Below are positions 5,018-47,571 of a stretch of 64,000 nt of DNA, one piece after another. Under the pieces are notes generated by a model. The model ran no database searches, was not told where the DNA came from, and saw only the letters and a list, made by a program, of their open reading frames with translations. The stretch spans positions 100,744-164,743 of the forward strand of contig JABIHA010000085.1 in NCBI GenBank assembly GCA_018649885.1, given 5' to 3'. Positions within the stretch are counted from its first letter, which is position 1. Every line of letters starts with the position of its first letter. The position numbers and the translations under genes are program-made. Origin of the DNA: Bacteriovoracaceae bacterium. Lineage in GTDB: Bacteria; Bdellovibrionota; Bacteriovoracia; Bacteriovoracales; Bacteriovoracaceae.

Positions 5018-6187
5018 CTATTTTAATTGATCTTGGCAAAAGAGTGAATAATCTACTTTTATGCCACAATTTGAAAAAGTTGTAGTGAATACCTTGGTAT
5101 ATCCGTCGGGATCTTGGGGTTGGGGGCCTTCGGTTTTAGGAAAAACGACTCCAAAAACTTTCGGATGATGGAAACTTGCAATGCGTTTGATTAACTGAGC
5201 GTAATACTTTGCTGTCCCCACACGGTTTTTAAGTCTCTTTCCATAGGGAGGATTGACTAGCAAAATGTCAGTGGATGACTTGATCTCTGGCAATTGATCA
5301 GAAAATAAATCAGCGTACTGTGTACTGACATTTGAATTTTCTGGAGTGATAGAGTTGATTACCTTCGTTTTCTCAATCATTTCTTTGTCAATATCATTAC
5401 CGGTGATATTTTTGAAAATAGGAATGCCTTTGATTTCAAATTTTTTTTCTATGAATTCCACTCCTTTTATCAGTGGCATAGATTCAAAACTAAAATCTCG
5501 ATTCCAGTTACTAGTGTGAAAATAAGCTGCCTCAAGAAGAAAAGTTCCACTTCCGCACATTGGATCTAGAAAACTAAGACCATCTAAATTCTGCATATAC
5601 TTTCTTGCACTCCATAAAAGTGAGTAGGCAAAGCTCTCTCTAATGGGGGCCCCCGAAGTAAAGCTTTTCATCCCCCTCCTATCAAGTCTTTCGCCAGATG
5701 TATCAATTGAAAGAGTTAGGCTGTCATCACAAACGCGTACATGAATTTGTGGAGCTTGGTAATTCTCACTATACTCAGGAGGTAATTTGGGTGGAGTTTT
5801 CTTTTTGTAGTATTTTGAAATGGCTTCTACAATTGTGTTTTCCATTTTCTTTGTATTTATCAGCCTCGACTTGAGAGTGGTGATGAACATTTGGGGGAAT
5901 TCACCTGCTCTAATATATTGATTCCAATCAACTGAAGAAAATTTCTTATAGAGCTTGGGAAAATCACGACATTTATAGGAATCTATTCTTAAAAGAATTC
6001 TAGTGGGAATTTTTAAAAAATAATTGAGGGCGAAGCCATGCTCATATGAGGCCAATATCTCAATTCCCCCATGTGTGGTAGACTGAACCCTAGGAGCTTC
6101 ACCAAAAATAGTTTGATATTTTTCTTCAAGCTCGCTAGTGGCCAGAGTTTCAAGTCCAGGTGGAATTACTATAAAAAAACTTTTCAT
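5018..6187 (-). CDS. THUMP-domain class I SAM-dependent RNA methyltransferase (RlmL/YpsC family)
   Basis: 389 residues, matching the length of stand-alone RlmL-type enzymes (the N-terminal half of E. coli RlmKL). The N-terminus (FFIVIPPGLETLATSEL) is the family signature, followed by a THUMP region to about residue 160. The SAM-binding motif is LDPMCGSGTFLLEA (about 207-220) and the catalytic motif NPPYGKRL sits near 315-322, typical of N2-guanine methylation. Likely role: modification of 23S rRNA. The ATG at 6187 is followed downstream by the Sel1-repeat gene. Its upstream region is filled by the 105-bp inverted-repeat element. Confidence 0.85.
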   Translation of the reverse strand: MKSFFIVIPPGLETLATSELEEKYQTIFGEAPRVQSTTHGGIEILASYEHGFALNYFLKIPTRILLRIDSYKCRDFPKLYKKFSSVDWNQYIRAGEFPQMFITTLKSRLINTKKMENTIVEAISKYYKKKTPPKLPPEYSENYQAPQIHVRVCDDSLTLSIDTSGERLDRRGMKSFTSGAPIRESFAYSLLWSARKYMQNLDGLSFLDPMCGSGTFLLEAAYFHTSNWNRDFSFESMPLIKGVEFIEKKFEIKGIPIFKNITGNDIDKEMIEKTKVINSITPENSNVSTQYADLFSDQLPEIKSSTDILLVNPPYGKRLKNRVGTAKYYAQLIKRIASFHHPKVFGVVFPKTEGPQPQDPDGYTKVFTTTFSNCGIKVDYSLFCQDQLK

Positions 6188-6197
6188 ATAGACTACC

Positions 6198-6302
6198 TAT
6201 ACCGAAGTGATTTAGGCTTTCCAGTGAGTGGATGACGAAGAAGGCGTGTAACACACTCCGATGAGGAATACGCCACTGGAAAGCCTGAAGCACTTCGGTA
6301 TA
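6198..6302. repeat. 105-bp long inverted-repeat element
   Basis: Two 29-base arms (6198-6226 and 6274-6302) are reverse complements at 27 of 29 positions; the outer part reads TATACCGAAGTG and the inner AGGCTTTCCAGTG. The two mismatches are at 6210/6290 and 6213/6287, the latter a possible G-U pair in RNA. A 47-base centre (6227-6273) separates them. The element fills nearly the whole space between two divergent genes. It could be a MITE-like insertion with terminal inverted repeats, or a structured RNA or regulatory hairpin. No second copy was noticed in the window. Confidence 0.8.
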
Positions 6303-6318
6303 TCAGGGTCTTTTATTA

Positions 6319-6903
6319 TTGGCAAAGCAGGACGTGTTTATTTTGCATCAATTAAAAAAATTTCAATCAAATGGAGATGATGGGCATCTTGTCAGGGTCT
6401 CCTTAGAGCAAGCCTGCGATAAATTTTTAGTTGAGTTTATTGTAGAAAAAAAGGGCCTTGATCCTTGGCATATATTGAAATCAACAAGTTGCGATCACTA
6501 CGGCAATTGGGGTCTATGGGAAGGTGATGTGGTTGAGGTATTCATTCAAGGAAGAGAAGACGCAGAAGCTTTGCTTGCTCCTTATCTTGAGCTCAATGTT
6601 TCGCCCAATGGACATCGATTTGCGCTAGTCGTTCAAAAACCCAGACAAACTTTCTATACGCCGATCCAGCTTGATTTTAAATCGGTTGTCTGTCATACAA
6701 CACATGATGGTGGTGAATTGTGGAAAACCAGTATTAATTTTGATTTACCTGAGCAAATCAAAGGAAAGCTATTTATTAATTTTAACTGCTGCCTTAAATG
6801 TAGTGGTGAAACTGAGTACTATGGACTTAATTTGGCCAACACGGGGAAGGCCGATTTCCATAGGCCCGAGGTTTTTCTTCCCTTATGCGACATAGTCCTC
6901 TAG
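6319..6903 (+). CDS. DOMON-like / CBM9-like beta-sandwich protein
   Basis: 194 residues with no signal peptide. The sequence has the layout of the type-9 carbohydrate-binding-module/DOMON-like fold: FLVEFIVEKK strand, GLWEGDVVEVFI (the W-x-D-x-hydrophobic-E-x-hydrophobic-hydrophobic block typical of these domains), YLELNVSPNG, and a C-terminal NFNCCLKCSGETEYYGLN strand pair. These domains bind sugars or haem in other proteins, but this stand-alone cytoplasmic form has no assigned function. The start is a TTG at 6319 with AGGG about 10 bases upstream; a GTG at 6334 is an alternative. The RsmI-like gene follows immediately. Confidence 0.6.
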   Translation: MAKQDVFILHQLKKFQSNGDDGHLVRVSLEQACDKFLVEFIVEKKGLDPWHILKSTSCDHYGNWGLWEGDVVEVFIQGREDAEALLAPYLELNVSPNGHRFALVVQKPRQTFYTPIQLDFKSVVCHTTHDGGELWKTSINFDLPEQIKGKLFINFNCCLKCSGETEYYGLNLANTGKADFHRPEVFLPLCDIVL

Positions 6904-47525: not shown

Positions 47526-47571
47526 GTAAAAATGTTAAATTCAAACTGAGATCAGTATATTTCAAAAGGAA

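Follow-up and report, generated by a model that had tools for sequence, protein, structure and literature searches.

Our analysis suggests, with a probability of about 0.8, that a 105-bp inverted repeat lying between two divergent genes of a Bacteriovoracaceae bacterium belongs to a family of non-autonomous, MITE-type mobile palindromes. This reading is based on dispersed copies that have fixed ends, differing flanks and random orientation, on their occurrence in two genera, and on a longer spacer at this locus than in most of the relatives compared. As a MITE-type palindrome the element is ordinary, but it represents a new family with an unusual strand-specific stem that resembles the stem of ERIC. 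A search of the literature on MITEs in Bdellovibrio, on tandem G-A in such repeats and on strand-specific or compensatory features, with coverage that leaves out most subscription journals, found no report of this element family or of the tandem G-A design.

The window, by which we mean the whole stretch of 64 kb that was analyzed, contains the following features (all coordinates are those of the window):

6198..6226, plus strand: left arm, or terminal inverted repeat, of subfamily A, starting with TATAC
6227..6273, plus strand: 47-nt centre, common to both arm subfamilies and identical to that of the subfamily-B copy B_C76
6274..6302, plus strand: right arm, ending in TATA
6234..6241, plus strand: 5' side of the serial tandem G-A stretch (GA C GA A GA), opposite 6260-6267, placed by folds and pair counts
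6260..6267, plus strand: 3' side of the serial tandem G-A stretch (GA T GA G GA), in which 6262 covaries with 6239
5018..6187, minus strand: neighbouring RlmKL-like methyltransferase-domain gene (PF01170), start codon 10 bp from the element
6319..6903, plus strand: adjacent ORF with no assigned family, beside the methyltransferase gene in 9 relatives; its predicted start codon lies 16 bp away from the element
47536..47559, minus strand: solo-end remnant of the element family (G000:C72:148285-148302)

Recomputing the inverted repeat at 6198-6302 gave the same figures as the first-pass annotation: a length of 105 bp, arms of 29 nt that match at 27 of 29 positions (93% complementary) and a centre of 47 nt. 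The predicted RNA fold of 6190-6310 reaches -61 kcal/mol, whereas shuffled sequences average -28.1 (z of -9.3; 0 of 200 shuffles as good), and no other inverted repeat with non-overlapping arms occurs in the 64-kb window at settings of at least 18 nt, an 11-nt seed and within 300 bp. The element had been described as filling nearly all of the space between an RNA methyltransferase gene and a DOMON-like gene. The spacer and the methyltransferase domain (PF01170) were recovered, but the DOMON-like assignment was not, as the 6319-6903 ORF matches no Pfam family at E 0.001. Similarly, the window was said to have no second copy, which is correct for full copies but overlooks the remnant on the minus strand at 47536-47559, a 24-nt family end with 2 mismatches to the subfamily-B arm (0 in 100 shuffles). 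A run of genes that follows closely downstream of the element includes one of the tetrapyrrole methylase family (PF00590, 6885-7613) and an HMG-CoA reductase gene (PF00368, 8711-10045).

Related copies are dispersed throughout the host genome (G000; 5.45 Mb in 151 contigs, 92% complete), for which the copy numbers, drawn from pattern and blastn searches, are minimum counts. A blastn search with the element gives 27 matches, some of which are one copy read on the opposite strand, and when a degenerate version of the subfamily-B arm is searched with up to 3 mismatches allowed, 38 matches are obtained, against 0 for the reversed control. Twenty-one full-length copies could be assembled: 4 in subfamily A, which has the arms of the window copy, and 17 in subfamily B. 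Most of these (17) are exactly 105 bp long, the others being 104, 106, 109 and 133 bp, and across dispersed copies the ends are fixed (TATACTG...CAGTATA) and the flanks differ. The family is therefore of the kind defined as MITEs, being short, non-coding, bounded by terminal inverted repeats and present in many dispersed copies. In the 133-bp copy (G000:C25:32674-32806), the hairpin tip is extended by about 28 bp in which a CCAGTGTGGAGCAC-like unit is repeated.

The two subfamilies are distinguished by their arms: comparing the left arm of A_C8 with that of B_C76 shows 8 differences in 29 positions, and the centre of the window copy is that of B_C76. Judged from these sequences, a simple decay model does not explain arm divergence together with identical centres. 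Subfamilies A and B look as if copies had swapped arms or centres.

Truncated copies are common, and include solo ends at several host loci, among them 47536-47559 in the window, and short forms in which much of the hairpin is deleted. The shortest form, the 18-bp palindrome TATACTGNNNNCAGTATA, occurs seven times in the host and six times in G031, a genome that belongs to the same family but to another genus, and is absent from the remaining 57 of 59 genomes searched; the host positions are C3:18750, C27:21655, C43:30683, C81:8802, C105:40039, C128:2768 and C130:4720. Its sequence would fit a deletion between the CAG repeats of both ends, and these palindromes are probably deletion remnants. 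Their recurrence would also be compatible with a bound protein.

Outside the host, a related family of longer elements is found. G031 contains a 172-bp element with ends TATACTGRTYCCAGTTGAGTTTTCAAGTGA as in the host family and a different centre, of which five full copies were read, along with deletion forms of 98, 51, 40 and 39 bp. The host itself has a lone 168-bp copy of this long type (G000:C54:7338-7505, locus L105, hereafter the C54 copy), which is 67% identical to it (113 of 168 aligned bases). With the 105-bp element as a query, blastn matched one of 59 genomes, the host's own. Of 368 genomes of the phylum, 5 contain the exact ends pattern, with many copies in the host and G031 only and single matches in three others; these single-end matches lie inside long ORFs in G112 and G146 and between ORFs in G070. 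A match to the centre pattern in one other named genome was taken as chance, as the likeness is limited to the searched stretch. A phage or plasmid vehicle was rejected, given that the exact pattern has no match in viral contigs, the 105-bp element none by blastn in plasmids and phages, and the 172-bp element none by blastn in plasmids. Five loci in G031 (L130, L132, L140, L147 and L188) have another repeat of about 60-100 bp, 84-92% alike, in their intergenic flanks, which does not contain the element's motifs.

The locus in the window is as expected for an insertion. Homologues of the 6319-6903 ORF were found in 13 relatives, and in nine of these the methyltransferase gene lies divergently beside it within the fetched stretch. 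The spacers projected for these nine from protein alignments, in which the true start codons may shift the values by some bases, are 5, 6, 9, 19, 20, 26, 29, 44 and 182 bp, compared with 131 bp in the window, which is 105 + 26; of the comparisons made, this one comes closest to an empty site. Without the element, the two divergent genes would be only about 26 bp apart, so that the insertion has probably altered their promoter and leader region and displaced or split whatever promoters both genes had. This gives a local case in which a small repeat can separate two divergent genes that are spaced by 5-44 bp in most relatives compared. The one long spacer, of 182 bp (L214, in G013), counts against the insertion; within it lies ATCAGTATA, which corresponds, possibly by chance, to the final 9 bases of the right end in subfamily B. 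The relatives' spacers are not alignable base by base with that of the window. Among the fetched flanks, a search for filled and empty pairs (4883 rows, from which near-identical overlaps were dropped to leave 26 rows without the element motif) found no empty site in those 26. TA starts 29 of the 38 arm matches in the host, and the remaining nine begin otherwise. The first-pass annotation had offered a MITE-like insertion as one possibility and a functional RNA hairpin as the other, and the insertion is the reading favoured by the dispersed copies in two genera and by the much shorter spacer in 8 of 9 relatives; the search for further copies with the same arms that it proposed yielded the 21 full-length host copies and a related family in a second genus.

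Most copies are intergenic, several of them 0-13 bp from a gene start or end, and a few overlap the end of an ORF. There is no preferred orientation to the neighbouring genes: with the element oriented, the flanking gene directions given by a simple ORF caller are +- in 8, -- in 7, -+ in 6 and ++ in 6 of 27 copies (21 from the host and 6 from G031). An outward TTGAAA is present in all 34 subfamily-B arms, with TATA exactly 16 bp further on in 24 of them. The window copy has the weaker TGGAAA, with a promoter match of 8/12 on each side, and a promoter scan of this copy gave no match at the scan threshold. The same scan placed one terminator-like match, with 0.1 expected, in the element's centre. 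A known RNA family was rejected, as the three loci searched in Rfam have no family at the gathering score; in E-value mode, the window stretch gave two matches, both far below that score.

The stem is conserved on one strand in particular. In an alignment of 20 copies, from which the 133-bp copy was left out, the hairpin has 42 pairs, 97.6% of cells are paired and 14 of the 42 pairs are changed on both sides, although several of these double changes represent the single A/B split, so that independent events are fewer than 14; none of 500 shuffles and no slid version scored as high. The centre is not an open loop, and consists instead of GAxGA tandem mismatches with single Watson-Crick pairs between them. 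One such pair, 6239-6262, covaries between uncorrected G-A pairs (A-U in 11, G-C in 8 and G-U in 1 of the 20 copies). The same strand, which is the plus strand at the window locus, folds better in 28 of 28 copies (21 from the host, 6 from G031 and the C54 copy). On this folding strand the 609 arm pairs of the 21 host copies include 38 G-U, 4 A-C and 11 other mismatches; counted by distinct position, and pooled with one G031 copy, there are 18 G-U and 3 A-C (p = 0.0015, in a two-sided test that allows in part for the strand having been named after looking).

GAxGA accounts for 45 of the 64 2x2 loops in 27 copies, whose relatedness means that pooled loop and pair counts are not independent; the folds predicted for three copies (A_C36, B_C81 and B_C134) lack a 2x2 loop of this type. 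Among 3000 simulated imperfect palindromes, by comparison, GAxGA accounts for 19 of 1420 2x2 loops on the better strand, and none has two or more. A G031 copy folds to -100 kcal/mol on the better strand and -61 kcal/mol on the other, a difference per base that none of the 3000 simulated palindromes reaches; the difference in B_C142 is reached by 2.3% of them and that in the window copy by 9.4%. Taken by itself, then, the window copy is unremarkable in its energy difference, and it is the family-wide pattern that is remarkable.

The best independent test of stem conservation is the C54 copy. It folds to -102.4 kcal/mol on one strand and -67.2 kcal/mol on the other, and keeps 68 of 71 aligned G031 pairs, of which 17 are changed on both sides and 6 on one side; the other 3 are broken. 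Its 73-pair stem contains 11 G-U pairs and no A-C mismatch, and the interruptions are purine-rich (AGAxGA, GAAxGA, AAxAA, A-G and G-A), with no exact 2x2 GAxGA loop.

ERIC was chosen for comparison because of its TA ends and because the cited papers (see below) leave its mobility unexplained. Fourteen ERIC regions (8, plus 6 plasmid copies) were collected, and 11 remained after three repeat loci were dropped. The better fold is on the same ERIC strand in all 11, and each copy has from one to three GAxGA loops. G-U is commoner on the better-folding strand in 10 of the 11, with fewer in L236 (2 versus 6). In one Citrobacter copy, as read from the alignment, the inner stem is changed on both sides and the GAxGA loop is kept. 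TATACT occurs at several ERIC ends and is changed in other ERIC copies. Homology to ERIC beyond this terminal hexamer was rejected, as shuffles that keep TATACT reach the score in 8.5-80% of cases.

In the mechanism that we propose, the element would insert at TA and would be moved in trans by an enzyme that has been lost or is yet to be found. Copies would then decay as deletions take out some or most of the hairpin, giving rise to the solo ends, the 30-98 bp forms and the 18-bp palindromes. The strand with the near-continuous stem and the serial tandem G-A may be used as a folded single strand, either ssDNA or RNA, at some stage; what points to such a stage is that the near-continuous stem with tandem G-A is found on one strand, and that ERIC has a similar design.

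The alternative that survives best is movement as a duplex: as has been proposed for RUP, a DDE transposase of the IS630 type would mobilize the element at TA in double-stranded form, and the strand asymmetry would be incidental. We regard this as a serious contender, at somewhat under even odds. The TA at 29 of 38 arm ends is in its favour, as are the intact IS630-family transposase gene (C124:6563-7456) and the broken one (C178:9674-10011) in G031. The end repeats of the intact G031 IS630, like ATAATACCAATCGCAAAAATTAATT, contain ATACCA, and their TACCA is somewhat like the TACTG of the element; however, they differ from the element ends, and the G031 IS630 repeats ATACCAWTYGCAWAAATTAATT do not otherwise match. 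In the host, searches with PF13358 and the IS630 model gave no match at 92% completeness; across the whole analysis, the transposase families covered were DDE_3, NF033545 and Y1_Tnp. Nor is the G-U bias predicted by movement as a duplex. No full IS with the element ends TATACTGRTYCCAGTT was found among 18-nt end matches with up to 3 mismatches in the host and G031, although an autonomous partner with shared ends is a supporting rather than a necessary feature of MITEs. A 2.2-kb pair of ends in G031 contig C162 was considered as an autonomous element and rejected, as the 496-aa ORF inside it has no visible transposase character and the right end has 3 mismatches in 18.

It is unlikely that the symmetry and the compensatory changes come solely from replication template switching between the arms, with no selection on the folded strand. 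Template switching can repair and create stems, and is therefore a source of compensatory changes (PMC8794818), and some copies, such as B_C134 and B_C20, have symmetric changes at both ends. However, such a process would be expected to remove G-A mismatches, and would not obviously favour G-U over A-C. GAxGA nevertheless makes up 45 of 64 2x2 loops, the 6239-6262 pair covaries between G-A pairs that stay uncorrected, and the C54 copy has 11 G-U pairs and no A-C mismatch.

We consider it rather improbable that, in the manner of REPINs, the folded strand is mobilized by a single-strand nuclease, whether of the Y1 (RAYT-like) type or another. The preservation of one strand as the folding one would fit this model, as would three Y1_Tnp matches in the host genome. 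Y1_Tnp is, however, present in 36 of 59 genomes but was not found in G031 (86% complete), which carries the elements. REPINs are small, dispersed, gene-free palindromes made up of two REPs, each with its own tag, and have a linked RAYT gene, whereas the element is a single long hairpin.

More doubtful still is a functional RNA, working either as an sRNA or in cis on mRNAs, whose dispersal would be secondary to its function. The compensatory changes, the G-U bias and the tandem G-A on one strand are RNA-like, and ERIC within mRNA has been reported to change transcript stability (PMC2229807). Against this, the random orientation of 27 copies to neighbouring genes argues against a cis-acting mRNA element, no Rfam family reaches the gathering score, the spacer is short in 8 of 9 relatives, and copies are often truncated or shortened by deletion. 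A single-locus promoter or terminator structure without mobile relatives, which the first-pass annotation had set against a mobile element, would suit a position 10 and 16 bp from two predicted start codons, but it is very improbable given the multiple copies found by blastn and arm pattern, the short spacer in 8 of 9 relatives, and the single terminator-like match in the centre with no promoter-like match at threshold.

The MITE-type mobile palindrome that we favour can be compared with several known systems. Like REPINs and REP-BIME, these elements are small dispersed palindromes that lack a gene; unlike REPINs, they form one long hairpin, and the distribution of Y1 genes does not fit. The Correia or NEMIS elements of Neisseria are about 107 and 155 bp long, with 24-bp terminal repeats and TA ends (PMC2229807), and sigma70-like promoters have been reported for them (PMC10969869). 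The element is like Correia, by description only, in its size, its TA ends and the outward promoter-like motif of the subfamily-B arms, but the promoter match is weak in the window copy. RUP, from pneumococcus, is 107 bp long, has a TA target and forms a compact hairpin with paired ends (PMC2229807, PMC3049150). The size, the TA and the compact hairpin with paired ends are all shared by the element; RUP ends, however, resemble a resident IS630, and no such partner was found here.

The closest likeness is to ERIC (also IRU or RU-1). Both are of the same size class (ERIC is 127 bp), are TA-terminated with TATACT ends, and form an intergenic long stem-loop in which one strand folds better and GAxGA loops interrupt the stem; neither is known to have a transposase. 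They differ in that the terminal repeats are 29 bp here, compared with the 7 bp listed for ERIC (PMC2229807), and in host lineage, as ERIC is found in enterobacteria and vibrios (PMC10969869). In two papers from 2007, the mechanism of ERIC movement is given as not known (PMC2229807, PMC2759123), and transposases are described as lacking experimental support for such repeats (PMC2229807). The element, which we do not call an ERIC, is thus built like ERIC and, by analogy, may work like ERIC. Since the family is not alignable to ERIC beyond TATACT, yet has a similar strand-specific stem, it provides an independent data set, and the tandem G-A and G-U on one strand are a concrete feature that a mechanism should explain. 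A bolder suggestion, which we put forward as an outside chance, would unite ERIC and these elements in a single class of mobile hairpins that spans phyla and whose members are maintained, copied or moved in folded single-stranded form; its signature would be TATACT ends, serial tandem G-A and a one-strand G-U bias. If such a class exists, the enzyme that moves ERIC-type repeats would act on the folded strand, or on its RNA, rather than on duplex DNA.
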